Source of the DNA: Hyphomicrobiaceae bacterium
GTDB taxonomy: Bacteria > Pseudomonadota > Alphaproteobacteria > Rhizobiales > Hyphomicrobiaceae
Direction: 5' to 3'
NCBI GenBank assembly: GCA_016793635.1
Contig: JAEUMD010000008.1
Span: 1-64,000, forward strand
Length of the DNA: 64,000 bases
The notes beneath the pieces were generated by a model. It saw nothing but the letters and a program-made list of their open reading frames with translations, did no database searches and was not told where the DNA came from. Below are positions 1 to 12,206 of this stretch, in pieces (positions within the stretch are counted from its first letter, which is position 1; every line of letters begins with the position of its first letter). The position numbers were made by a program, and so were the translations under genes.

Positions 1-140
1 ACAACCGCCGGCTTCTCGAGCCCATCGGCAACATCCCGCCCGCCGAGACTGAAGCCGCCTACTATGCAGCCCTGGAGGCACCTGCCAAACTCGCCGCCTG
101 ACTCAAACGAAACAGCCTCCGGAAAACCCGGGGCGGTTCA
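1..140 (+). mobile_element. Right end of an IS3-family insertion sequence (partial)
   Basis: The first 101 bases encode the C-terminus of an IS3-type OrfB transposase. They are followed by a non-coding tail ending in GGAAAACCCGGGGCGGTTCA, at 121-140. Read on the minus strand this begins TGAACCGCCCCGGGTTTTCC, which resembles the terminal inverted repeats of IS3-family elements (recalled, not searched). Beyond base 140 the sequence becomes an SBP56 gene in mid-protein, so the element boundary is placed there. The left end and any target duplication lie outside the window. Confidence 0.8.
3..101 (+). CDS. IS3-family transposase OrfB, C-terminal fragment (runs in from the left edge)
   Basis: The frame from base 3 reads NRRLLEPIGNIPPAE followed by a short Ala-rich tail and TGA at 99-101. 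The motif RRLLEPIGNIPP close to the C-terminus is characteristic of IS3-family DDE transposases, which cut and join the ends of their own element. Only the last 32 codons are visible, so the DDE catalytic core cannot be checked and the copy may or may not be intact to the left. It sits immediately upstream of the truncated SBP56 gene. Confidence 0.8.
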   Translation, partial: NRRLLEPIGNIPPAETEAAYYAALEAPAKLAA

Positions 141-141
141 G

Positions 142-2020: not shown

Positions 2021-2434
2021 TCATGCGGAAGATGTTTCTTGCATTCCAGGTTCGATTGGCCGCTCGACTTTCCCGCCAGCCTTCATCCAGTCCTCGAAAG
2101 CGCCGAGGTTGTAAACATGCGCATAGCCCATCTCCATGAGTGTCTTGGCACTCAGCGCGGAACGGCCGCCGGACGCGCAATACAGAATGTATGTCTTGTC
2201 CATGGAAAACGACTGATCGTGATACTTGCAAGTGGGATCCGCGCGGAACTCCAGCATGCCCCGGGAAACGTGTATGGCACCGGCAATCTTTCCTGTCTTC
2301 TCGACCTCCGGAGCGTCCCTCACATCTACCAGGACGGCGCCTGCCCCTGAGACAAGCTGCTCCGCCTTGTTCTTGTCGATGCGCGGCACCACCGCATTGG
2401 CGAGTGCGATAAGATCCGACACAGTTTTGCTCAT
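2021..2434 (-). CDS. Rhodanese-like sulfurtransferase
   Basis: A single rhodanese domain of about 137 aa. It shows VDVRDAPEVEKTGKI at residues 36-50, an AIHVSRG segment, and the active-site loop with Cys86 in LYCASGGRS. Single-domain rhodaneses carry a persulfide on this Cys and transfer sulfane sulfur to thiols, cyanide or protein acceptors. The start at MSKTVSDL was chosen over two in-frame ATGs 9 and 27 bases upstream because GAGG lies about 9 bases before it. It is the last of a minus-strand series with the H-protein-like and OsmC genes, and it faces the membrane protein gene with a 44-bp gap. No signal peptide is seen, so it is presumably cytoplasmic. The context suggests handling of sulfur released from methanethiol. 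Confidence 0.88.
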   Translation of the reverse strand: MSKTVSDLIALANAVVPRIDKNKAEQLVSGAGAVLVDVRDAPEVEKTGKIAGAIHVSRGMLEFRADPTCKYHDQSFSMDKTYILYCASGGRSALSAKTLMEMGYAHVYNLGAFEDWMKAGGKVERPIEPGMQETSSA

Positions 2435-2475
2435 TGGCTCCATCCTCGAAAATTTCGTCACGCCACGCCGCGTTC

Positions 2476-2877
2476 TCAGTCGTCCGCACCGACATGGGAT
2501 CGGTACTTTGCCGCAGTCATCAGTGTTGGATGATCCATGGCGCTATCGATCGCGATGTGGACGAGCCAGCCAGCGCCATAACAGTCGCTATTGACGAGCG
2601 TCGGATCGCCAACCAGCTCTGCGTTGCAGGCAATCACGGTGCCGTTTGCGGGCGCGATCAGGTCGGAGACGACCTTGGCGGCCTCGATCTCGCCAAACGC
2701 GTTTCCAAAGCTGATCCGCTGCCCGACGCCCGGCAATGTGATGCTGACGATGTCGCCCAATTGGTCCTGAGCGAAATGGCTGACCCCAATGGCCGCCGTG
2801 CCGGGTTCGGCGAGATTGCAGATCCAGAGATTTTCCTCATGGTAGAGGCGGTCATCGGGATAGCGAGGTGAAGTCAT
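2476..2877 (-). CDS. Lipoyl-carrier protein of the glycine-cleavage H family (GcvH- or LbpA-like)
   Basis: The 133-aa protein has the H-protein fold signature: LYHEENLW near the N-terminus, IGVSHFAQDQLGDIV at about 30-44, and the lipoylation site with Lys68 in EIEAAKVVSDLIAP. H proteins swing a lipoyl arm between enzymes of the glycine cleavage system. There is no gcvT or gcvP here. The gene sits between a rhodanese and an OsmC gene in a methanethiol-related locus. In Hyphomicrobium, H-like proteins called LbpA serve the sulfur-oxidising sHdr pathway, so an LbpA-type role is a reasonable alternative. Choosing between GcvH and LbpA needs a phylogeny. The start (MTSPRYPDD) matches the normal family length; an upstream extension of the frame looks non-coding. 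Confidence 0.82.
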   Translation of the reverse strand: MTSPRYPDDRLYHEENLWICNLAEPGTAAIGVSHFAQDQLGDIVSITLPGVGQRISFGNAFGEIEAAKVVSDLIAPANGTVIACNAELVGDPTLVNSDCYGAGWLVHIAIDSAMDHPTLMTAAKYRSHVGADD

Positions 2878-2978
2878 CAAGCCGTTCCTGACTTGTCCGA
2901 GTTGAAATTGGAGCAAGCACACCCGTCCGCTCGATGAGTGACGGTGTGTGGGTCCGAGGGGGTGGAGCTGCGGCAATC

Positions 2979-3010
2979 GAAAGGGAGGCGCTCATCCAAG
3001 CTCGCCTCCC
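2979..3010 (-). terminator. Possible terminator after the OsmC gene
   Basis: GGGAGGCG (2983-2990) and CGCCTCCC (3003-3010) form a perfect 8-bp stem with a 12-base loop. On the minus strand it is followed by a short T run (TTTC). It lies about 30 bases beyond the OsmC stop codon and upstream of the H-protein gene, so it may separate the two transcripts. Confidence 0.5.
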
Positions 3011-3039
3011 GATGGGATCCTGAACCCACGCGCGCCGGC

Positions 3040-3582
3040 TTACTCCGCCGCCGCGTTCATGCTGAGCGGCGCCCCATTGGCGTTGACTTTGCCTTCGACC
3101 TGCATGGGCCGCTGGAGAGTATCGAGAACAGGACAGTGCCGTTCGACGGTCTGCACCAGCTGTCTCAACTGGTCTTGGGATGCCGAGCTCTTGAGCTCGG
3201 TCTCATACGAGATCCGCGTATAGCCGGCAGGCACATTCGGATCGAGGCCGAACAGGCCCTTTAGATCGAGGTTTCCTTTGAGATTGCACTTCACCGACTC
3301 CAGCGGAATCCCCATCACCGAGGCGTAGGCGCTGTACATGACTTCCTGGCACGTGCCGAGCGCAACGAGGATCAGTTCGACCGGATTCATTCCCGTATCG
3401 CCGCCGGCAAGCTCGGGGGGTTCGTCCGTAAACATGGGCGGGAAATCGCGAACTTTTCCCTGGCAGCGCACGTTCTCGACCAGTTCCGTCTCGGCTCGAA
3501 AGATCACCTTGGAGGCGTTCGGGTTGGCCTTGAGACCTTCGATCGTCTTCAGCAAGGCCGACTTCACGTCTTCCTGCGACAT
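3040..3582 (-). CDS. OsmC/Ohr family peroxide reductase-like protein
   Basis: The 180-aa protein has the two conserved OsmC-family cysteines: Cys78 in VALGTCQEVMY and Cys150 in VERHCPVLDTL. These form the redox centre that reduces organic hydroperoxides or H2O2. The region before Cys78 (GGDTGMNPVELILVAL) is the typical dimer-helix entry. The start was set at MSQEDVKS because AGGAGA precedes it at proper spacing; the upstream part of the frame is intergenic. It lies between the H-protein-like gene and the FixJ-like regulator, all on the same strand. Methanethiol oxidase produces H2O2, so peroxide detoxification is a plausible local job. It could instead reduce sulfur-containing hydroperoxides; the sequence does not fix the substrate. 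Confidence 0.88.
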   Translation of the reverse strand: MSQEDVKSALLKTIEGLKANPNASKVIFRAETELVENVRCQGKVRDFPPMFTDEPPELAGGDTGMNPVELILVALGTCQEVMYSAYASVMGIPLESVKCNLKGNLDLKGLFGLDPNVPAGYTRISYETELKSSASQDQLRQLVQTVERHCPVLDTLQRPMQVEGKVNANGAPLSMNAAAE

Positions 3583-3687
3583 GGCGTTTCTCTCCTGTAG
3601 ATTATTTTCTGGTTTGGAGAGGCGATTACGCCATGGGCGGGCAACGCGAACAATTCGGAAGCCCACCATTGCACTATAGGGATTTCC

Positions 3688-4332
3688 CTAATTGAATACC
3701 GTCTGTCCGACATTGCAGTCGGCACTCTTGGCGTTGATCTTGGAAAGAATTTGCACGAGATGCACGATGCTTCGCGCAGACAGCTTGTTCATCATGTTTG
3801 CACGGTACACTTCGACGGTCTTGCAGCTTAGCCCGAGCTCGTGGGCGATCAGCTTGTTGGGCTTGCCAGATCCAACAAGCATCGCGATCTCGCGCTCCCG
3901 CCGAGTGAGTTGCTCGAAGCGGGATTGGATTTCCTTCTCCTCGCTCCATTCATTCCACGCCAGCCGCGCGGCCTGAAGAGCCTGCTCCGTGCGTTCCAGC
4001 AGCATCTGGTCGTCGTAGGGCTTCTGAAGGAAATCCACCGCACCCGCGCGCATGGCACGTACCGCCATAGGCACGTCGCCGTGTCCGGTCACCATGATGA
4101 TCGGCAAACGCCAACCGCGCCTCCCCACCTCGCGTTGGAGTTCAAGCCCGCTCATGCCCGGCATCCGAACATCGAGAATGAGGCAGCCGGGTTCGCCGGA
4201 ATAGCGTGCGAGAAACGCGTCGGCCGATGCGAAGCAGATGACATCGTGCCCAACCGATTCCAGCAACCATCGCAACGAGTCCCGCGCGGCCGCGTCATCG
4301 TCCACGACCAGGACTGCTCCCCGGCTGTTCAT
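3688..4332 (-). CDS. FixJ/NarL-type two-component response regulator
   Basis: The 214-aa protein has an N-terminal receiver domain with acidic pocket VDDD at 10-13, phospho-acceptor Asp54 in LILDVRMPG, and conserved Lys in the FLQKP motif. A C-terminal LuxR-type helix-turn-helix lies at about 140-200 (LTRREREIAMLV, then KTVEVYRANMM). This is the FixJ/TtrR architecture: phosphorylation by a partner kinase drives DNA binding and transcription activation. The stop of the upstream kinase gene overlaps its start by 4 bases (ATGA), so the pair is translationally coupled. Its neighbours suggest control of the sulfur/peroxide genes or the porin, which is inference. Confidence 0.93.
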   Translation of the reverse strand: MNSRGAVLVVDDDAAARDSLRWLLESVGHDVICFASADAFLARYSGEPGCLILDVRMPGMSGLELQREVGRRGWRLPIIMVTGHGDVPMAVRAMRAGAVDFLQKPYDDQMLLERTEQALQAARLAWNEWSEEKEIQSRFEQLTRREREIAMLVGSGKPNKLIAHELGLSCKTVEVYRANMMNKLSARSIVHLVQILSKINAKSADCNVGQTVFN

Positions 4333-5618
4333 TGCATCACCCTTTGCTCGCAGGAAGGCGGCAATTCGAACGCGAACGACAGGCCGCGCCCGGCTTTGCT
4401 TTGCGCCGCCGACAACCGCCCTCCATGTGCTTCGACGATCGACCTGCAGATTGACAATCCCATTCCCATACCGGCTTGCTTCGTTGTCAGGAACGGTGTG
4501 AACAGGGTATCCAGTTCATCGGTGCATAATCCAGGTCCGGTATCGTCGATGCAAACTCTCGCCATGCCGTTCCCGGCGGTGCTGGTGACGACTTTGATCT
4601 TCCTCCCACTCGCCGGCACGTGCTCCATCGCCTCGAAGCCATTGCGCACGATGTTGAGCACAACCTGCTCCAGCTGCGTGCGCTCTCCAAGAATGGTTGG
4701 CAGATCCCGAGCGAAGTCGCACTCGATGGCGACATTCTGGGCTTGCGCCTCGATCTGCGCGATGGAAAGCGCCCGTTCGATGACATCGTTGATCGAAATG
4801 CACGCTAGTTCTTCATCGGTCCGTGAGATGAACCCCCTCAAGGAGCGGATGATGTTGGCCGCGCGTTCGGCTTGCGCGCATACGTGCTCCATGGCTCCGA
4901 CGACTTCCTCGCGGCCTTCGCTGTTCCGCAGCCGCAGCAGAGCGCCTTTCGAGTAATTGGCGATAGCCGTGAGCGGCTGGTTGAGCTCATGCGCGAGCAT
5001 CGTCGCTAATTGACCGACCGTGTCGAGGCGCGACGCATGGGCGAGTTCCCGGTTTTCCCGGCGCATCTGCTGCTCATAGCGCTTCTGCGCGCTGATGTTC
5101 CGCGTTATTGCGAGAATCGCCGTGACGTTGCCGTGCGCATCCGTGAGCGGGGCTGCGTGTGTCTCCATCCACAGCCGCCTGTCCTTGAGTGAAATGATCT
5201 CGAATTCGAGCTTCTCCACCGCGCCGGCAAATACTCGTTGGGTCAGTGAACGGTACGCGGCAGCATAGTCAGGCGCTACGAGTTGGTAGACCGAGATGCC
5301 GATGACGTCGGATGGAGCCGCGGCCTCCACGAGGCGCAAACCAGCCGGGTTCATCTCGAGAATGGTGCCATCCCGGCCATGAACTTTGACGCACTCCGGC
5401 TCGGTTTCGATTATCTGACGCAACCGCTTTTCATTCTGCAACAAGAGCGCTTGAGCGGCTTGGCGTTCGACGACTTCCCGTTCGAGGACCGTCTTGGCGT
5501 GACGCAAGTGGGCATTCAACCGCGCAACGTAGATCATTGCGCTTGCGGCAAGAGCGATGGCTGCCGCGCAAAAGACAGACCACAGGCTCAAACTTGCGGG
5601 AATTGGAATCAAGAACAC
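4329..5618 (-). CDS. PAS-domain sensor histidine kinase (FixL-like)
   Basis: The 429-aa protein has one N-terminal membrane segment (about 9-31), a short coiled region, a PAS domain at about 66-180, and a HisKA domain with phospho-acceptor His210 in MLAHELNQPL. The C-terminal HATPase domain shows the N box (NIVRNGFEAMEH), G1 (DTGPGL) and G2 (GMGMGLSICRSI). Kinases with ELNQPL and this core belong to the FixL/DctB/TodS-like subgroup. No haem-binding histidine signature could be verified in the PAS domain, so oxygen sensing should not be assumed. It overlaps the response-regulator gene by 4 bases and forms an operon with it. Its signal could be a redox state or a sulfur compound. Confidence 0.9.
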   Translation of the reverse strand: MFLIPIPASLSLWSVFCAAAIALAASAMIYVARLNAHLRHAKTVLEREVVERQAAQALLLQNEKRLRQIIETEPECVKVHGRDGTILEMNPAGLRLVEAAAPSDVIGISVYQLVAPDYAAAYRSLTQRVFAGAVEKLEFEIISLKDRRLWMETHAAPLTDAHGNVTAILAITRNISAQKRYEQQMRRENRELAHASRLDTVGQLATMLAHELNQPLTAIANYSKGALLRLRNSEGREEVVGAMEHVCAQAERAANIIRSLRGFISRTDEELACISINDVIERALSIAQIEAQAQNVAIECDFARDLPTILGERTQLEQVVLNIVRNGFEAMEHVPASGRKIKVVTSTAGNGMARVCIDDTGPGLCTDELDTLFTPFLTTKQAGMGMGLSICRSIVEAHGGRLSAAQSKAGRGLSFAFELPPSCEQRVMQ

Positions 5619-5790
5619 ATTCCCCCATTTCTTCAGGCTATGGAATTATTTCTCATGCCTATGGGTGGGCGCGCTTTTAGCGTCACGCTAGGGCACGACT
5701 GAGCTTTTAGACTACCACGTTCAAGGCGTTTCGTACCGCCAAGACGGGAACATAATATCCATCGCGCCGCAGCGAAGTTTGAGATCATGC

Positions 5791-5830
5791 GAGAAAAACA
5801 AAGAGGGAGCGGGTTTGCGCCCGCTCCCTC
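5791..5830 (-). terminator. Rho-independent terminator downstream of porin 1
   Basis: GAGGGAGCGGG (5803-5813) and CCCGCTCCCTC (5820-5830) form a perfect 11-bp GC-rich stem with a 6-base loop. On the minus strand it is followed by TTTGTTTTTCTC. It lies about 145 bases beyond the porin stop, so the porin mRNA has a long 3' untranslated region that contains a second hairpin. Confidence 0.85.
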
Positions 5831-5835
5831 AGAAC

Positions 5836-5908
5836 GTGTTGGAATGATAGTTGAGCCTTTATCGGGCCCGGATCGCCAGGGGGAAGGGAACCGGGTCCAT
5901 TCCAACAC
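5836..5908 (-). other. Structured element in the porin 3' untranslated region (intergenic stretch 5619-5974)
   Basis: GTGTTGGAATG (5836-5846) and CATTCCAACAC (5898-5908) are perfect 11-base inverted repeats closing a 51-base interior. The interior contains further GC-rich complementarity (GGCCCGG with CCGGGTCC, with one G-U pair). Together with the terminator at 5791-5830 this gives two stacked hairpins between the porin and kinase genes. A 3'-UTR-derived small RNA or an mRNA stabiliser are both possible. Nothing else coding is seen in 5619-5974. Confidence 0.45.
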
Positions 5909-5974
5909 TCGAGTGGAGAGTAGTCGAGCTTGGTCACACGCGTCCAAGTCGGTCTACCGCACCTGTTCGGCGCA

Positions 5975-7357
5975 TCAGAACGAGATCAGACCGCCCATCG
6001 TAACAACGTGCAGATCGTCGAGGTCGTCGAACACTCCAGCAACGCCAGGGCCTGACATGCTTGGATCATAGTTCTTGTAGTTGAGCCAAAGCGTCATCGC
6101 CGCAGCATCAATCTCCTGAACCACGCCAAGGCCCCACTGCCGCAATTCGCTGCCGGTCACGCCGAACCCGGTCAGTGCGGGATGGTACATGTCGTCGCGA
6201 ACGCCATATTCGCCATAGAGCACGGTGTGTCCAAGCGGCGACCATTTGCGGCGTAGACCGGCCTTGAGATACCAGTTGCTTCCGCTGGGTTGGCCAGCCG
6301 TGATCGCAGGGATGGCGTAGACACTGTTGTTGTCCTCGACGCCATAGGCGCCGTAGAGGAAGAGGCCCGACGAGACGTGGTGGATGAACGCGCCTGCCTG
6401 GAAGTAGTCGGAGTCGAGGTGGACCGGATGGAATGCCGTCAAACCTGTAACTGTGTCGAAGCCCATGAACTGGGATTCGTCGCTGTGATGGGAATACGCA
6501 GCCGTCACCGCAAGCTTGATACCGTTGAACTCACCGGCATAGCGCGCTGCCACATCCCAGAAGTCGTCCTCACCCCAGCTTGCCGACACCGAGAAGCCGC
6601 CGAACGTCGGCGAGTCGTAGCGCACTGCATTTGTCGGTATGCCGTCGCAGTCGCCCGCCACCGGCAGCGCTGTCGATCCGCACCACATCAGCGCGCCGGT
6701 TGGGAAACCTGTCCCGTTGGGCAGCACGAGTTGCGTACCATTCTGCGAGAGGTTGATGGCCATTCCATCGAGCGGCACCCAGTTCGCCATCACGAGCGAG
6801 CCCGAACCATCAACAAGCGCGGCCGCATGTTGCGACGCCTGCGGGATGAGGCCGACACTGACCTGACCCAATCGGCTGCTCTTGAGGAACCAGAACGAAT
6901 ACAGCAAGTCGACCGAGCCGCTCGTCAGACCGCCGTTCGAGTTGACGATGCGCAGGGCGGAGGGACCATCGTCCCCGAAGCGCGAATTGCCCGCGGTGAG
7001 CGGATCGGACGAGTTGACCTCGAGCTGTAGGACATATCCCGCCGACCACTCCGGAGAGATCGTGGCGGCACCCGTCAGCTTGAAGTGCGAACTCAGCGTC
7101 GAACCGACGCCCGTGACGTACGTATTGCTGGTCGCGCCGTTATCGTACCACATCACCTGCTCGGCAACCCATCCGGTGATTGCGAGCGAGACTTTGCGGT
7201 TGCCCTTGCGGGCGGTCGTCGCTTCAAGTTCCGCGACGCGTTCTTCAAGATCCGCGCAACAGTCGCCACCCAGGTCTGCGGCAAAGACCGGCGTGACAAA
7301 CATCGATGCTCCGAGAAGCCCCCCGAGGGCAGCCTTTGAAAGGCGTGACCTTTTCAT
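5975..7357 (-). CDS. Outer-membrane porin (Porin_2-like), copy 1
   Basis: The 460-aa product begins MKRSRLSKAALGG with a signal peptide ending PVFAADLGG. A short periplasmic coiled segment follows (CCADLEERVAELEATTARKG), then a beta-rich region of alternating Tyr/Trp/Gly-rich strands to a C-terminal Phe (GGLISF), as expected for a trimeric outer-membrane beta-barrel. Alphaproteobacterial porins of this type pass small hydrophilic solutes. The ATG at 7357 gives a normal signal sequence; the frame extends 19 codons further but reads as non-coding. A close paralogue lies at 19765-21171 with the same DLGGDCCADLEER start to the mature protein. It lies between the mauG-like gene and the kinase gene, so it may serve uptake for the methanethiol locus. 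Confidence 0.9.
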   Translation of the reverse strand: MKRSRLSKAALGGLLGASMFVTPVFAADLGGDCCADLEERVAELEATTARKGNRKVSLAITGWVAEQVMWYDNGATSNTYVTGVGSTLSSHFKLTGAATISPEWSAGYVLQLEVNSSDPLTAGNSRFGDDGPSALRIVNSNGGLTSGSVDLLYSFWFLKSSRLGQVSVGLIPQASQHAAALVDGSGSLVMANWVPLDGMAINLSQNGTQLVLPNGTGFPTGALMWCGSTALPVAGDCDGIPTNAVRYDSPTFGGFSVSASWGEDDFWDVAARYAGEFNGIKLAVTAAYSHHSDESQFMGFDTVTGLTAFHPVHLDSDYFQAGAFIHHVSSGLFLYGAYGVEDNNSVYAIPAITAGQPSGSNWYLKAGLRRKWSPLGHTVLYGEYGVRDDMYHPALTGFGVTGSELRQWGLGVVQEIDAAAMTLWLNYKNYDPSMSGPGVAGVFDDLDDLHVVTMGGLISF

Positions 7358-7798
7358 TTTTTTTCCAATCCTATCGCTTGTGCCACCGAGTCGACCCCTC
7401 CGCTCGATCGGCAAGTTCTGTCGGCCGTGTCCAAGAACTCGCAGGTAACATCCTCAAAACCGCTCGGGCACGCGCGGGATGCGAACGGTTTCGGCATTCG
7501 AGACACGTGCTTCATTTATGGGCCGATGATTGAAACGGCAGCAACAGGATTTCATCGATTTTGAGGATTCAACATCCGTCGATGTGCCCTGCCCGATACA
7601 CAAATTGCAGGACCGAATAACTCGTGACATCGCTCACTATGAAAGCGATTTGCATCATGAATGAATGGACCGCTTTCATTTGCGTTGCTGCTGTAATTCC
7701 ATGCCCCACGCGCGCCGATTCGCACACGCGGCGAATCGCTTGGCGTCGCGCTACAGGTTCACCCTTCTTGTCGGCATATTCGCAACGACGCAGTCGTC
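7358..7798. other. Intergenic region between the MauG-like and porin genes
   Basis: No convincing gene. It contains the presumed porin promoter and a 9-base inverted repeat, ATGAAAGCG (7639-7647) and CGCTTTCAT (7671-7679), separated by 23 bases. This could be a weak operator or mRNA hairpin. A second hairpin (ACGCAGTCG with CGACTGCGT) straddles the MauG stop codon near 7799 but has no T run. Confidence 0.4.
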
Positions 7799-8932
7799 CT
7801 ACGGGCGACTGCGTTGCTCTCCGTCCAACGTCCGCAAGAAGGCAACCAGCTCGGCCTTCTCGTCGACGGACAGATCGAGGCGCGTGAGGATTCCATCGGT
7901 CGCATGCCGCGCGGCCGCGCCACTGCTGTAGAAATCCACCACGTCTTCGAGCGTAGCGATCGAACCGTCGTGCATGTACGGCTTCGTGCGGGAAACATTG
8001 CGAAGGCTCGGCGTCTTGTAGGCCCAGCGATCGCTCTCTTTAAGTGTTACTTCGAAGCGGCCAACGTCGTTTCTGGGGCTCTCTCCGAAGGCGTCTATCT
8101 GACTGTCCGACATGCTGGTCGTCACTCCCGGAGCGAGCGGGATGACGTGAATGCGACCGGAACCCATTGCCGCCCGATACCCGATTCCAGTGTTATGGAA
8201 GCGGTGATCGGTGAACAGCGCCGACTCCTGCTCGATCCGGTGGCAGGTACTACAGCCACCTTTGCCCGTGAAGATTTGGAATCCGGCCACCTCTGCCTTG
8301 GTCAAGAGGCCCTTCTCTCCGCCGAAATGCCAGCGGTCGAACCGTGAGTTCGCCGAGAGAAGTGTGGCCTCGTAGGCGGCGATCGCATCGCCGACCGAGT
8401 GGACCGATATACCTTCGGCCGGATAGACCCGGTTGAATTGCGCGTCGTAGTCGTCGAGCTCGCCGATGCGATCGAGAACGTAGCCCATGGAGGGATTGGC
8501 CATTTCGTCTTCCGCGAGGAGAGGCATCCACACCTGAAGATCGATCCGGTTCTCGCGACCATCATGAAAGAGGGAGCGCTGGTAGACGACATTGAGAACC
8601 GAGGGTGCATTTCGACGCAGCGTGCGCCCCTCCATGCCGATGGATTTCTTTGACTGCGTAGATGCGAAGGCGTCCTCCTCGAGGTGGCACATTGCGCATG
8701 ACAGTGTGTTGTTGAAAGACAGCCGGCGATCAAAAAAGAGCTTCCTGCCGAGTTCCACCTTTGCCGGTTGTACCGTCGCGAATCTCGGCGGCATCGGCGG
8801 CAATCCGAGCGGCACGGCGAATTCCGTGGCCTTGCGCTCGGGCGAGGCCGTGGCCGCAGGCTCGCGCGGTTCCGCAAAGGAGGTCGCGGTCCACAGGATT
8901 GCGATCGCTAAAGCACTAATTCGGATTTTCAT
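7799..8932 (-). CDS. MauG-like / di-haem cytochrome c peroxidase
   Basis: The 377-aa exported protein starts with a signal peptide (MKIRISALAIAILWTATSFA). It has two c-type haem attachment sites: CAMCH with Cys79/82-His83 and CSTCH with Cys227/230-His231. This is the bacterial di-haem peroxidase/MauG family. Members either reduce H2O2 in the periplasm or carry out oxidative protein maturation, as MauG does for tryptophan tryptophylquinone. In the described Hyphomicrobium mtoX operon a mauG-like gene follows mtoX and sco1, as here. It is thought to help mature the methanethiol oxidase or remove H2O2. Its start overlaps the end of the SCO1 gene by 17 bases, with GAGG upstream of the ATG, so the genes are coupled. 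Confidence 0.92.
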   Translation of the reverse strand: MKIRISALAIAILWTATSFAEPREPAATASPERKATEFAVPLGLPPMPPRFATVQPAKVELGRKLFFDRRLSFNNTLSCAMCHLEEDAFASTQSKKSIGMEGRTLRRNAPSVLNVVYQRSLFHDGRENRIDLQVWMPLLAEDEMANPSMGYVLDRIGELDDYDAQFNRVYPAEGISVHSVGDAIAAYEATLLSANSRFDRWHFGGEKGLLTKAEVAGFQIFTGKGGCSTCHRIEQESALFTDHRFHNTGIGYRAAMGSGRIHVIPLAPGVTTSMSDSQIDAFGESPRNDVGRFEVTLKESDRWAYKTPSLRNVSRTKPYMHDGSIATLEDVVDFYSSGAAARHATDGILTRLDLSVDEKAELVAFLRTLDGEQRSRP

Positions 8933-9650
8933 AACGCGCGCCTCGCGGCTGCATCGGGACGGTCGCCGGAAGTTCGTTCGCCTCGATCAACAGGGTGCGG
9001 ATATCGTTCTCGATGACTTCGGGCGTCACGAAAGCTGGCGAGTAAATCTCGCGCACCCACGACGACCTGTCCAAGAGATAGAATTTCACCTGGTGACTGA
9101 TGGTGGGCGCCGGGTTGTTATTTTCGTCGAGGTCTCGCGCGGCGGCTTGGCCGAATCCGTCCAGGATCGAACCCAGGTACCGGTCCGACCAGGTTGTGAG
9201 GAAGTGCCAAGGAGCGATGTGATGCGTGTCGCTGCGCGCGATGGAAAATATTTCCAGACGGTCGGGCGTATCGAGGCGTGGATCGAGACTTATGAGAACC
9301 AGCCGCACCTTGTTGTGGAGTTCGGCTTTTTTCCCAACGAGTTCGTGGATTGTTTCGTAGAGAGACCAGGTGGCCGGGCATCCTTCTGGATCCCGGCAAG
9401 TCGCATAAAAGAAGCCGAGCAGCGTAATCTTGCCACTGGTGTAGGAAGACAAGCTGTGCGGCCACCACCGGCTTTTCTCGAGCACCCAAGAATCGGGTGC
9501 CGGGAAGATGCGCGGCAGCTTGTAGGTTCCAGGACGCGGGAATACAGAAACGTCAGCCGCGCTCCCACTTGCCACCATCGCAGACGGGAGTCCAATCATG
9601 ATGGCAAGGGCGAGAGCGCGGCTGAGTTTCAAGAGACAGGAGGAAGCCAT
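8916..9650 (-). CDS. SCO1/SenC family copper protein with atypical Cys spacing
   Basis: A 244-aa exported thioredoxin-fold protein with a signal peptide ending near SGSAAD. The SCO1 framework is visible: a GFFYATC segment, the beta-strand VLISLDPRLDTP, and a distal His in ISHQVKFYLLD where SCO1 proteins place their third copper ligand. The copper-binding motif is normally CxxxC. Here it reads CRDPEGC, so five residues separate the cysteines (CX5C). The gene lies between mtoX and the mauG-like gene, and SBP56 methanethiol oxidase is a copper enzyme, so copper delivery to MtoX is the likely role. An AAGGTGA ribosome site precedes the ATG. Confidence 0.88.
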   Translation of the reverse strand: MASSCLLKLSRALALAIMIGLPSAMVASGSAADVSVFPRPGTYKLPRIFPAPDSWVLEKSRWWPHSLSSYTSGKITLLGFFYATCRDPEGCPATWSLYETIHELVGKKAELHNKVRLVLISLDPRLDTPDRLEIFSIARSDTHHIAPWHFLTTWSDRYLGSILDGFGQAAARDLDENNNPAPTISHQVKFYLLDRSSWVREIYSPAFVTPEVIENDIRTLLIEANELPATVPMQPRGARYENPN

Positions 9651-9679
9651 GTCACCTTGAAAATGCTGAGGGTTGCGTT

Positions 9680-10996
9680 TCAGTTCTGCAGCGAACGATA
9701 AACATCCATCGTCGACCCGATAGCCTTCGAATTCGGACGGGCCGAGAACTTCATATGATGTGCGCGGCCCAGTTTCTCGGCGATGAAGTCAATCTTGAAA
9801 CGCTCGGTCAGTTCCTTGCCGTCCCAGTCGTAGGACTTCAGGAATTGATCGTTTTCCTCACCCTTCTTGTCCCAGTTCGCCAGAAGCGACGTCGTGAAAT
9901 AGACCCGCTTGCCGTCCCAACTCTGCGAAACCATGTTGACCTGGTTTCCGATCTTCTTCGAATAGACCTCCTTGGGGGCTTCGACGTTCGAGATGTCGAA
10001 CAGTCGAGCTGAGCCGTCCATGAAGGTGTTGACCCACAGATGCTTTCCATCAGCGGCGATGGAAATGTCGACAGGCAGGGGAATCTTGGCCGGATCGCCC
10101 ACCGTCGCGACATCCTTGGCCTGCCATTCGCCCTTGTCATCCTTGCGGACGAGCCAGATCTTGGAGGTCAATGCCGTAGCCGTGAGTGCCCAATCCGCCC
10201 CTGGCTTCAGCGACCAGCGAATCTCGAGAGGCGCGCCGGGTACCGACAGGACCTTGATCGGCTTCATCGACTTGACGTCCCAGACGGCCATCGTGTTGCC
10301 GAAGTTCTTCATGGCCCCGGCATCTTTGACCAACGTGCCCAAGTCCATCATGTAGTTCGTCCAGCCGGTGAAGCTCGACGTCAGCATGACGTTCTGGTTG
10401 GGGTTGACGCCGATATCGTAGCCGTAGCCATCGCCACCCATGCTGGCCGTCGGCATGTCGTAAGTTGACACCAGTTCGCCTTGGTTGGAGTAGACGATCA
10501 CACCGGTCCTGCCAGTATGGTCTTTAGAATTCGAAAGCGCCTGAACGAGCACGCGACCTGGCATCGCGTAAAACGTGTGCGGACCGACGAATCCGGTTTT
10601 TTCCGCGAGATCGGTGATCGTTTTGTGCAGCTTGGGTTTTGCCGGGTCCTGAATGTCGAAGATGAAGATCTTGTTGTCGTCCAGGCGACCCGCCCAAAGA
10701 AAGCGTCGATCATCCGTGAAGCCCATATGGTGGGCTTCTCCACGGCCGCCGACAGAAAGCGTGTCGACAACCTTGCCATATGTCGGCGATCCAGGGACGA
10801 CGTCGATCGTGACCAGCTTGTCCGATTCGTCGCCCACCCCCTTCATGCCGAGAGTCCAGACGTGCAGGTACTCTTCTTGTCCCTTGATCAGGGCTGCCGT
10901 AAAGGGCGAGTTGCAGGTCTCGTCGGCATAGGCGGCTTTAAGCCCTCCCCCCACGACAAGCGCGGACAGACACGCACCAAAAATCCATGTTCTCAT
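9680..10996 (-). CDS. mtoX: Methanethiol oxidase (secreted SBP56 family)
   Basis: The 438-aa protein begins with a clear signal peptide (MRTWIFGACLSALVVGGGLK, cleavage near AYA-DE), so it acts in the periplasm. The mature protein is an SBP56 beta-propeller. Paired histidines occur at GRGEAHHMGF near the N-terminus and GRAHHMKF near the C-terminus, which are candidate copper ligands. The family enzyme converts methanethiol, oxygen and water to formaldehyde, H2S and H2O2. A strong AGGAGG lies 9 bases before the ATG. The gene leads a three-gene operon with SCO1 and MauG-like genes, the order reported for Hyphomicrobium methanethiol oxidase. It is divergent from a LysR regulator. This SBP56 lineage differs clearly from the truncated cytosolic-type copy at the window start. 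Confidence 0.9.
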   Translation of the reverse strand: MRTWIFGACLSALVVGGGLKAAYADETCNSPFTAALIKGQEEYLHVWTLGMKGVGDESDKLVTIDVVPGSPTYGKVVDTLSVGGRGEAHHMGFTDDRRFLWAGRLDDNKIFIFDIQDPAKPKLHKTITDLAEKTGFVGPHTFYAMPGRVLVQALSNSKDHTGRTGVIVYSNQGELVSTYDMPTASMGGDGYGYDIGVNPNQNVMLTSSFTGWTNYMMDLGTLVKDAGAMKNFGNTMAVWDVKSMKPIKVLSVPGAPLEIRWSLKPGADWALTATALTSKIWLVRKDDKGEWQAKDVATVGDPAKIPLPVDISIAADGKHLWVNTFMDGSARLFDISNVEAPKEVYSKKIGNQVNMVSQSWDGKRVYFTTSLLANWDKKGEENDQFLKSYDWDGKELTERFKIDFIAEKLGRAHHMKFSARPNSKAIGSTMDVYRSLQN

Positions 10997-11108
10997 CGAG
11001 ATTTCCTCCTCTTAACTTGGCCTTTTGGCGGCTGTAGACCCCGCCCAGTTTGTTTGGCCATGCGCACATGAAGCTAGGCGTGCGGCGTGCGAGGGTGAAA
11101 TTATATTT

Positions 11109-11131
11109 TCAAATACTATAGATAAATTTGA
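11109..11131. promoter_or_regulatory. Candidate LysR-type operator between mtoX and the divergent LysR gene
   Basis: TCAAAT (11109-11114) and ATTTGA (11126-11131) are perfect inverted half-sites separated by 11 bases, a dyad matching the T-N11-A rule of LysR boxes. It lies in an AT-rich patch of a divergent intergenic region, about 113 bases upstream of mtoX and 120 upstream of the regulator. Confidence 0.5.
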
Positions 11132-11249
11132 CCAATGAATTGGCAGCTAGCGAGTGCTTTATGCTACACCAACTGCATTCCTTGGCATTTCACCCCAAAG
11201 TCGGTCGCTTTGTCAGGATGCGACGCGATTGCTCCAATGGGCGGACACC

Positions 11250-12206
11250 ATGAACCTGCAGCAGCTAAAATACGTCGTCGCCGTTGCAGAGGAAGGCTCG
11301 TTCGTGGCTGCGGCGGCGCGGTGCGCGAACACACAGCCAACGCTCTCCAACGCCATCGCTCAACTCGAGGCGGAACTCGGCCACAAGATCTTCAATCGAA
11401 CCACGCGATCGGTTCAACTGACTATCTTCGGCGCGACTTTGCTGCCAGCCATCCGCGAGATCCTCTCCGGTGTTGGCCGCATCACGGAACTGGCCGAACG
11501 GCATGGGAGAGGTGCAACCGGCACGATCAAGATCGGGTTTTCGCCAGTTGTGGGCGTCGCACAGGCGACCCGCGTACTGCAGCGCTTCACGAGCCAGCAT
11601 TCCGACGTGTCGATTGTCTATCGTGAGGAAAATCTTGACGATCTGTGCAAGCTACTGCGCAACCAACAACTGGATCTCGTGCTGGCACCTGTCGATCTCA
11701 GGTCACCCGACCTGACCGACTGCGTCTATACCCTCATTCAGAGAGATCCGCTGCTGTTCGTTCCCAAGCAGGCTCACGAAAGCACGTGGCTCGATCACAA
11801 TGAGGTCGAGCTAGCCGCGCTGGCACGCGAGGAGTTTGTGCTCGTGCCGGATGCATGTGGACTGACGCGAGTGACGAAGCGTCATTTCAACGATGAGAAT
11901 ATCACGCTGCAAAGATATCCCGGTGAAGCGAGCAGCTATCGCGTCGTTGGCGAGTGGGCAGCATTGGGGCTTGGAGCAGGTATCCTGCCGGCTTCGAAAG
12001 TCGCGGAGGAACTCAAGGGCCGTGTCGCGATCCCGATCGTGAACCACGCGCGGCCGGTCACCATCGACTATTTTGCTTTCGGCAAACCGAACACGATCAC
12101 TCGGGAACTGTTCGCCGAACTCTGGCAGAGCCTGATCGAAGCGCATCCTGAAAACGAACCGCAGCACCGGCCAACATCCAGCCTCAGCATCAGCAAGAGC
12201 GCTTAA
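11250..12206 (+). CDS. LysR-family transcriptional regulator divergent from mtoX
   Basis: The 318-aa protein starts with a LysR helix-turn-helix (MNLQQLKYVVAVAEEGSFVA, then QPTLSNAIAQLEAELG). The C-terminal region (about 90-300) is a periplasmic-binding-protein-like effector domain. The N-terminus most resembles the OxyR/CysB-like LysR subgroup. An upstream in-frame ATG at 11154 would add 32 unrelated residues, so the start at the canonical MNLQQL was chosen. Divergent placement 253 bp from mtoX with a LysR-box-like dyad between them indicates control of the methanethiol oxidase operon. The effector could be methanethiol, sulfide or peroxide. Confidence 0.92.
   Translation: MNLQQLKYVVAVAEEGSFVAAAARCANTQPTLSNAIAQLEAELGHKIFNRTTRSVQLTIFGATLLPAIREILSGVGRITELAERHGRGATGTIKIGFSPVVGVAQATRVLQRFTSQHSDVSIVYREENLDDLCKLLRNQQLDLVLAPVDLRSPDLTDCVYTLIQRDPLLFVPKQAHESTWLDHNEVELAALAREEFVLVPDACGLTRVTKRHFNDENITLQRYPGEASSYRVVGEWAALGLGAGILPASKVAEELKGRVAIPIVNHARPVTIDYFAFGKPNTITRELFAELWQSLIEAHPENEPQHRPTSSLSISKSA

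Follow-up and report, generated by a model that had tools for sequence, protein, structure and literature searches.

The mtoX locus

The stretch of DNA analysed here (hereafter, the window) comprises positions 1 to 64,000 of contig JAEUMD010000008.1 from a Hyphomicrobiaceae bacterium (GenBank assembly GCA_016793635.1). At positions 2021-12206 it contains a wide locus for methanethiol oxidation, in which the genes of the mtoX-sco1-mauG operon lie together with genes encoding (i) a LysR-family regulator; (ii) a porin; (iii) a PAS-domain histidine kinase and a FixJ-like protein; and (iv) an OsmC protein, an H-like lipoyl carrier protein and a rhodanese. Parts of this set recur near mtoX in other genomes and, judging from gene neighbourhoods, the wider module proposed in an initial annotation of this DNA does exist, though as an optional one. 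All the genes named in that annotation are present: the LysR gene is on the plus strand, every other gene of the locus is on the minus strand, and each of them has a Pfam match above the curated score. The features are the following:

2021-2461, minus strand: single-domain rhodanese (PF00581, 63.9 bits; CASGGRS active loop)
2476-2877, minus strand, from the likely start at 2877 (open reading frame (ORF) 2476-2976): H-like lipoyl carrier protein, OsmC-linked group (PF01597, 112.8 bits)
3040-3579, minus strand, from the likely start at 3579 (ORF 3040-3669): osmC, OsmC/Ohr-fold protein (PF02566, 69.9 bits)
3677-3690, no strand assigned: TAGGG-ATTT-CCCTA palindrome that overlaps the fixJ stop codon, a candidate operator for the FixJ-like protein
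3688-4332, minus strand: FixJ-family response regulator, with matches to receiver and LuxR-type helix-turn-helix domains
4329-5618, minus strand: PAS-domain histidine kinase (PAS, HisKA, HATPase)
5975-7414, minus strand: porin (PF13609)
7799-8932, minus strand: MauG/MbnH-like di-haem enzyme (PF03150)
8916-9650, minus strand: SCO1/SenC-like copper chaperone (PF02630, 40.8 bits; CX5CP motif)
9680-10996, minus strand: mtoX, methanethiol oxidase, SBP56 family (NF052453)
about 11250-12206, plus strand: LysR-family regulator, divergent from mtoX (PF00126, PF03466)
142-1305 (ORF 64-1305), plus strand, outside the locus: second SBP56 homologue, C-terminal part (PF05694, 450.9 bits for ORF 64-1302)

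The genes mtoX, sco1 and mauG are tightly packed (a 29-base gap, then a 17-base overlap), the porin gene is separated from its neighbours by 384 and 356 bases, and the likely start of osmC at 3579 is preceded by a clear ribosome site of its own. In consequence, gene spacing suggests several transcription units rather than the single extended MtoX operon initially envisaged. The kinase and FixJ-like genes overlap by 4 bases. Scans for sigma-70 promoters and terminators gave matches no more frequent than chance.

The MtoX-SCO1-MauG core

MtoX obtains 751.4 bits from the NCBI curated MtoX equivalog model NF052453 (cut-off 650), and His89, His90, His140 and His413 are invariant among 7 aligned MtoX sequences. 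In the excerpts of PMC5739008, the copper-site histidines are given as His89, 90, 140 and 412; on our reading, His413 here corresponds to the published His412. In the window, sco1 and mauG lie directly downstream of mtoX. The same excerpts describe an mtoX-SCO1-mauG operon for Hyphomicrobium sp. VS and Ruegeria pomeroyi, in agreement with the earlier statement that this order is a known Hyphomicrobium arrangement.

The MauG-like protein reaches 218.3 bits with the MbnH-family model versus 194.1 bits with the MauG model, both below the respective cut-offs. Its best match in the PDB is 6e1c ("Di-heme enzyme", 146.6 bits), which we take to be MbnH, as opposed to 63-70 bits for MauG entries. Since the protein is closer to the MbnH model and to 6e1c, a modification other than tryptophan tryptophylquinone (TTQ) is possible for this enzyme. 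With regard to the copper chaperone, the usual SCO1 motif is CX3CP; among 77 SCO1-like matches from mtoX loci, CX5CP is present in 75, CX3CP in none and neither motif in 2.

Recurrence of the wider gene set

A scan of genome contigs confirmed at least 564 mtoX loci, the best 80 of which were compared. Neighbours were found by translated searches with the window proteins and, in the case of OsmC, also by whole-genome searches. As only 49 of the 80 loci are 20 kb or longer, the absence of a gene from the short ones is uninformative. The distribution of true mtoX is patchy: of 297 genomes from the order, 8 passed the cut-off, and of 398 from the phylum Pseudomonadota, 5 did so, the bacterium's own genome being counted in both.

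Nine of the 80 loci have OsmC no more than 10 kb away from mtoX (L035, L038, L065, L073, L083, L085, L104, L106 and L112). At the genome level, matches with E<=1e-20 were present in 14 of the 80 mtoX genomes, and matches of at least 44% identity in 12 of them versus 2 of 397 other Pseudomonadota (Fisher p 1.6e-8), in a comparison between an mtoX set and a random sample that differ in taxonomy. When positives are collapsed by lineage (from 12 to 7, with L083, labelled Rhizobium sp., placed in the Thiobacillus lineage) and the 68 negatives are counted individually, the enrichment is 7/75 versus 1/396 (p 1.4e-5). This 397-genome background and the abovementioned 398-genome survey are apparently one draw. 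The two background genomes with OsmC (L129 and L130) belong to one genus. On inspection by eye, their OsmC gene stands alone in the vicinity of efflux genes, and neither mtoX nor an Lpd or H-like gene was noticed around it.

Six of the 80 loci (L035, L065, L098, L111, L112 and L113) contain relatives of the PAS kinase (36-47% identity) and of the FixJ-like protein (47-61%) at a distance of up to 10 kb from mtoX, and a weaker pair (35% and 47%) is close to mtoX in L078. Throughout the mtoX/OsmC clusters, PAS kinase relatives show 36-50% identity; in the 397 other genomes, no match with E<=1e-70 appeared among the four candidates scored per genome listed. Three of the 80 loci (L035, L039 and L046) have a LysR relative (52-55%) close to mtoX, one (L035) has a porin relative (61%, just upstream of mtoX), and the OsmC cluster of Hyphomicrobium zavarzinii (L151) contains a porin relative split in two pieces (62% and 57%).

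The comparison of neighbourhoods, which the initial annotation had called for, found parts of the set (OsmC, H-like, rhodanese and kinase genes) recurring near mtoX elsewhere, and not the lack of conservation that would speak against a wider module. The suggestion that the wider set may be undescribed has also held so far: among the matches listed from open-licence PMC papers, no description of it was found and no OsmC-H-Lpd set beside mtoX was recognised.

OsmC clusters and their dihydrolipoamide dehydrogenases

In the 12 mtoX genomes with a close OsmC, the genes near it include those for dihydrolipoamide dehydrogenase (Lpd) in 9, the H-like protein in 8, the rhodanese in 5 and the kinase/FixJ pair in 6, in stretches of unequal length, one of which (G704) was read too short for the kinase. 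The order is kinase-FixJ-OsmC-Lpd-H-rhodanese in Thiobacillus (L160), kinase-FixJ-OsmC-Lpd-H-porin in H. zavarzinii (L151), and OsmC-rhodanese-H-LipA-Lpd in Methylophilus (L161). SZAS-18 (L157) has the kinase-FixJ pair, FCSD-like and TauE-like genes, and OsmC-Lpd-H, and in L112 OsmC is followed by a lipoyl-domain Lpd. In Thiobacillus thioparus (L162), a series formed by kinase-FixJ-ABC transporter-second OsmC-second H is followed by OsmC-Lpd-H-rhodanese, an FCSD-like gene and MauG-SCO1-MtoX. The loop C-[AKR]-[ST]-G-[GS]-R-S is present in the five module rhodaneses examined.

Two types of Lpd can be distinguished beside OsmC: (i) a first type, with 51-91% identity among Thiobacillus, H. zavarzinii and SZAS-18; and (ii) a second type, similar to the Lpd of pyruvate dehydrogenase (PDH), with 51% identity between Methylophilus and L112, and 55-62% identity to a PDH-like Lpd of the window genome. 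The presence of two different Lpd types next to OsmC argues for a functional need. The lipoyl-domain Lpd of L112 was considered as a new fusion and this idea was dropped, as a PDH-like Lpd of the window genome (L193) has the same architecture.

Cysteines C77 and C149 of OsmC are invariant in 16 of 16 sequences. The AlphaFold model (mean predicted local distance difference test score, pLDDT, of 86) finds its best structural matches among OsmC/Ohr structures, including an Ohr structure with dihydrolipoamide (6ebg, by entry title). The putative link between OsmC and dihydrolipoyl proteins consists here in gene association. With 88.2 bits, OsmC is below the curated cut-off (95 bits) of the OsmC-related (seleno)protein model NF041052. 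Matches with an in-frame TGA were tried as selenoproteins and discarded; in L163, this TGA seems to be the normal stop codon of the gene.

As regards the Thiobacillus-type mtoX loci (L073/L162, L083 and L078), one or more Rieske-type dioxygenase genes and a NitT/TauT-like ABC transporter were observed by eye near mtoX, and in T. thioparus a second ABC transporter directly precedes the second OsmC-H pair. The L083 locus, labelled Rhizobium sp., closely resembles those of Thiobacillus, and its label is probably wrong.

Identity of the H-like protein

The window genome has three H proteins above the family cut-off. One of the other two H genes lies beside an apparent gcvT (L128), and the other one, which is LbpA-like, beside apparent lipoate-assembly genes (L126), in both cases by eye. 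Regarding the H-like protein of the locus, it could in principle be an additional H protein of glycine cleavage or a lipoate-binding protein of the sHdr system, with OsmC and rhodanese as bystanders, and it does pass the broader GcvH subfamily model NF002270 (123.5 bits, cut-off 117). We consider this explanation most improbable, because the protein misses the cut-off of the gcvH equivalog TIGR00527 (111.7 versus 115.85 bits), the tree described below groups it with OsmC-linked H proteins, separate H genes exist at L128 and L126, and the alignment shows none of the N- and C-terminal cysteines of LbpA. The lipoyl-attachment lysine is kept in the aligned H proteins, that of the window included.

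The tree contains 28 H proteins from 13 genomes (weak matches and long lipoyl-domain proteins were excluded), in groups labelled from gene position and best match. Twelve OsmC-linked proteins split from 12 canonical and 4 LbpA-like ones with 93/94 support, with a program warning of long branches; the ten OsmC-Lpd-linked proteins by themselves obtain only 76/61. The genes of sLpl/LipS type adjoin, by eye, the L126 H gene and not that of the locus. In view of tree and neighbours, both the GcvH and the LbpA readings were rejected; on sequence grounds, the window protein belongs to neither of these two known kinds. According to the excerpts of PMC6067878, LbpA is a GcvH-like protein that acts in sHdr sulfur oxidation in Hyphomicrobium denitrificans, and cysteines near both termini are a shared pattern. 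Apart from this, L126 and L131 (G000:C11) contain LbpA-like and LplA-like genes and apparent LipS1, LipS2 and LipT genes; no hdr genes were noticed by eye in 37 kb.

Regulators and a shared palindrome

The PAS kinase and the FixJ-like protein score below the cut-offs of the NCBIfam models FixL (210.7 bits, cut-off 850) and FixJ (227.7 bits, cut-off 255), respectively. By motif search in upstream stretches, the palindrome TAGGG-N4/5-CCCTA was found. Its exact form has one copy in the 3.82 Mb assembly, at window positions 3677-3690, with its centre 104 bases before the osmC start; about 8.6 copies would be expected from base composition, and the reversed control pattern has 3. The palindrome is located 105 bases before osmC in H. 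zavarzinii (L151), 122 bases before osmC in Thiobacillus (L160), and 109 bases before mtoX in L098.

With at most one mismatch, 9 of 14 sites in 12 pair-carrying stretches are within 300 bases upstream of module genes, a space equivalent to 4% of the bases; the motif was derived from part of the same sequence, and hence the significance is nominal. In this count, "module genes" take in the kinase, porin and ABC transporter genes, and stretches L035 and L157 overlap. The window slice used for an 18-base motif model held 13 of the 14 core palindrome bases, so that this model does not include the window site. Similar palindromes precede mtoX in L098, L111, L073 and L085, and two-mismatch variants do so in L112 and L113. 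In 64 control loci with true mtoX positions, no palindrome with one mismatch or fewer was found within 400 bases before mtoX, and the fixed-position version likewise gave none.

A proposed relay and the product of MtoX

What can be read from the DNA is the genes themselves, the recurrence of parts of the set near mtoX, the occurrence of two kinds of Lpd next to OsmC, the separate group of H-like proteins and the placement of the palindrome. The interpretation to which we give an even chance is that the locus joins a standard mtoX-sco1-mauG operon to a lipoyl-linked thiol-redox module, switched by the kinase/FixJ pair, where electrons would flow from NADH to Lpd, then to the H-like protein and finally to OsmC for the removal of peroxide (or of sulfane sulfur). 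The MtoX operon, next to its own LysR, would be periplasmic and the module cytoplasmic. The PAS kinase would sense some consequence of methanethiol oxidation, and its FixJ-like partner would act at TAGGG-N4-CCCTA to control osmC-gcvH-rhd. OsmC would then reduce peroxide arising directly or indirectly from methanethiol oxidation, a plausible role already suggested in the initial annotation, and would be re-reduced by the lipoyl arm of the H-like protein, in turn re-reduced by Lpd and NADH. This dihydrolipoyl carrier may also accept sulfane sulfur from the rhodanese, to be released as sulfide. The initial annotation had rhodanese and lipoyl protein take up sulfide-sulfur, which finds no support here; as relatives place the lipoyl protein with Lpd and OsmC, it looks more like an electron carrier.

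A broader claim, put forward tentatively and with slightly less than even confidence, is that the H-like protein represents a third physiological class of H-type lipoyl proteins, besides GcvH and LbpA, within a bacterial NADH-Lpd-lipoyl-OsmC relay which, together with rhodanese, would be dedicated to the reactive products of methanethiol oxidation, under a PAS kinase/FixJ pair with a TAGGG-N4/5-CCCTA operator.

Several observations weigh against the relay. To begin with, 68 of the 80 mtoX genomes have no OsmC of 44% identity or more, and a close OsmC is present in 0 of 4 other genomes above the mtoX cut-off in the random sample. Moreover, in 3 of the 12 OsmC genomes (G659, G678 and G686) the part examined around OsmC contains neither Lpd nor H-like genes. 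A dedicated Lpd was not found in the window genome (best full-length match of 35%; one 113-residue piece of 36%), and for this reason a housekeeping Lpd is proposed to serve there. In addition, the reading places MtoX in the periplasm and OsmC in the cytoplasm. Among 10 further genomes with the kinase pair (at only 35% in one of them, G699), the exact palindrome is beside the module in 3 (G667, G706 and G719), only elsewhere in 2 (G732 and G686) and nowhere in 5. Finally, the mtoX promoter of the window has no palindrome (3 mismatches at best), and consequently LysR may be the regulator of mtoX in this bacterium, with the kinase pair acting on the osmC unit. The regulators first attributed to the MtoX operon are indeed present; their division of labour looks finer than claimed, with kinase/FixJ apparently tied to the osmC unit in this bacterium and to mtoX in some lineages.

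Some of this evidence would suit a general oxidative-stress module of methylotrophs and sulfur oxidisers, brought near mtoX through shared islands and not through function. The module is optional near mtoX, and OsmC is alone in L152 and L155. In H. zavarzinii the module and mtoX are on different contigs, and a further copy of the module in T. thioparus is likewise outside the mtoX contig; both placements also weigh against the relay. Nevertheless, the strong enrichment of OsmC in mtoX genomes, as well as the similar palindromes before mtoX (L098, L111, L073 and L085) and osmC (window, L151 and L160), which point to one regulon, make such an explanation improbable.

Another possibility, which we regard as rather unlikely but more probable than the stress module, is that the main substrate reduced or transferred by the lipoyl relay is persulfide sulfur (or dimethyl disulfide) that MtoX makes or that arises from its activity: the rhodanese would load the sulfur, the H-like protein and Lpd would discharge it, and OsmC would be a persulfide/disulfide reductase and not a peroxidase. 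Rhodanese-lipoate chemistry was reportedly described by Villarejo and Westley in 1963 (cited in PMC6067878). The cluster includes a rhodanese gene in the window, in Thiobacillus (L160 and L162) and in Methylophilus (L161), and FCSD-like, PDO-like, SulP-like, TauE-like and Sox genes, partly named by eye, are nearby. Furthermore, according to the excerpts of PMC10936201, three MtoX enzymes of Rhodobacteraceae gave S0 but no H2O2, a finding that also counts against the peroxide relay: its direct peroxide source would fall away and, if the finding is general, the sulfur reading gains. On the other hand, no rhodanese was found beside OsmC in L151, L157, L154, L153 and L112, all of which keep OsmC and Lpd, and the chemistry of other OsmC/Ohr proteins, by the titles and entry listings seen, is peroxide reduction.

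The products of MtoX (H2S and H2O2, or sulfane sulfur and water) are disputed in print. A recurring lipoyl-OsmC-rhodanese module by mtoX, which in some lineages seems to share its regulation, offers a genetic handle on this matter, since the true substrate of the module would tell which product has to be cleared. To the roles of lipoate in 2-oxoacid dehydrogenases, in glycine cleavage and in sHdr, such a module would add a new one in the organic sulfur cycle. The palindrome provides a candidate operator sequence for finding further regulon members.

A second SBP56 gene, apparently interrupted

The second SBP56 homologue, absent from the initial annotation, is just outside the locus, and window positions 1-141 are the end of an IS3-type element. 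The N-terminal part of this gene is on another contig (C10:87309-87569; contig end L127). Both contig ends carry, by eye, a piece of IS3-type transposase, together with 28-base inverted repeats at 89% and, by eye, a 3-bp target duplication (GGC); because of these features, an IS3-type element apparently cut the second SBP56 gene and broke the assembly. Behind this gene, positions 1299-1976 encode a small membrane protein, HupE/UreJ-like by eye and with no Pfam match.

Comparison with known systems

Ohr is reportedly a lipoyl-dependent peroxidase (work attributed to Cussiol, 2010), and the hydrogenosomal OsmC of Trichomonas is said to occur with an incomplete glycine decarboxylase complex (attributed to Nyvltova, 2016); both works are cited in PMC10332631. 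The system proposed here shares with them the two-Cys OsmC/Ohr fold and a lipoyl protein plus Lpd as proposed electron path, but differs in that it consists of bacterial clusters that are linked to mtoX and have an H group of their own, a rhodanese and two-component genes.

LbpA of the sHdr system of H. denitrificans (PMC6067878, in excerpts) is likewise a GcvH-like lipoyl protein in sulfur metabolism. The window protein, instead, falls in another tree group and has neither the LbpA cysteines nor adjoining sLpl/LipS genes, and its genome has a separate LbpA-like protein.

The mto-clusters 1 and 2 of Methylophaga thiooxydans, as described in the excerpts of PMC6548844, also combine mtoX, SCO1/MauG and sulfur genes, while they carry PDO, SqrB and SulP; the main text of that paper has 0 occurrences of osmc and of rhodanese. 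On dimethylsulfide, Lpd protein increased 7.67-fold in this bacterium and PDH E2 7.50-fold. Such induction is weak support for the relay, as E2 rose about equally and Lpd may belong to PDH.

Lastly, the operon of Hyphomicrobium sp. VS and R. pomeroyi (PMC5739008, in excerpts) has the same gene order, and the window agrees with it in the MtoX model score and copper-site histidines. The main text of that paper has 0 occurrences of osmc and of rhodanese, and R. pomeroyi has an IclR-type regulator where the window has LysR.

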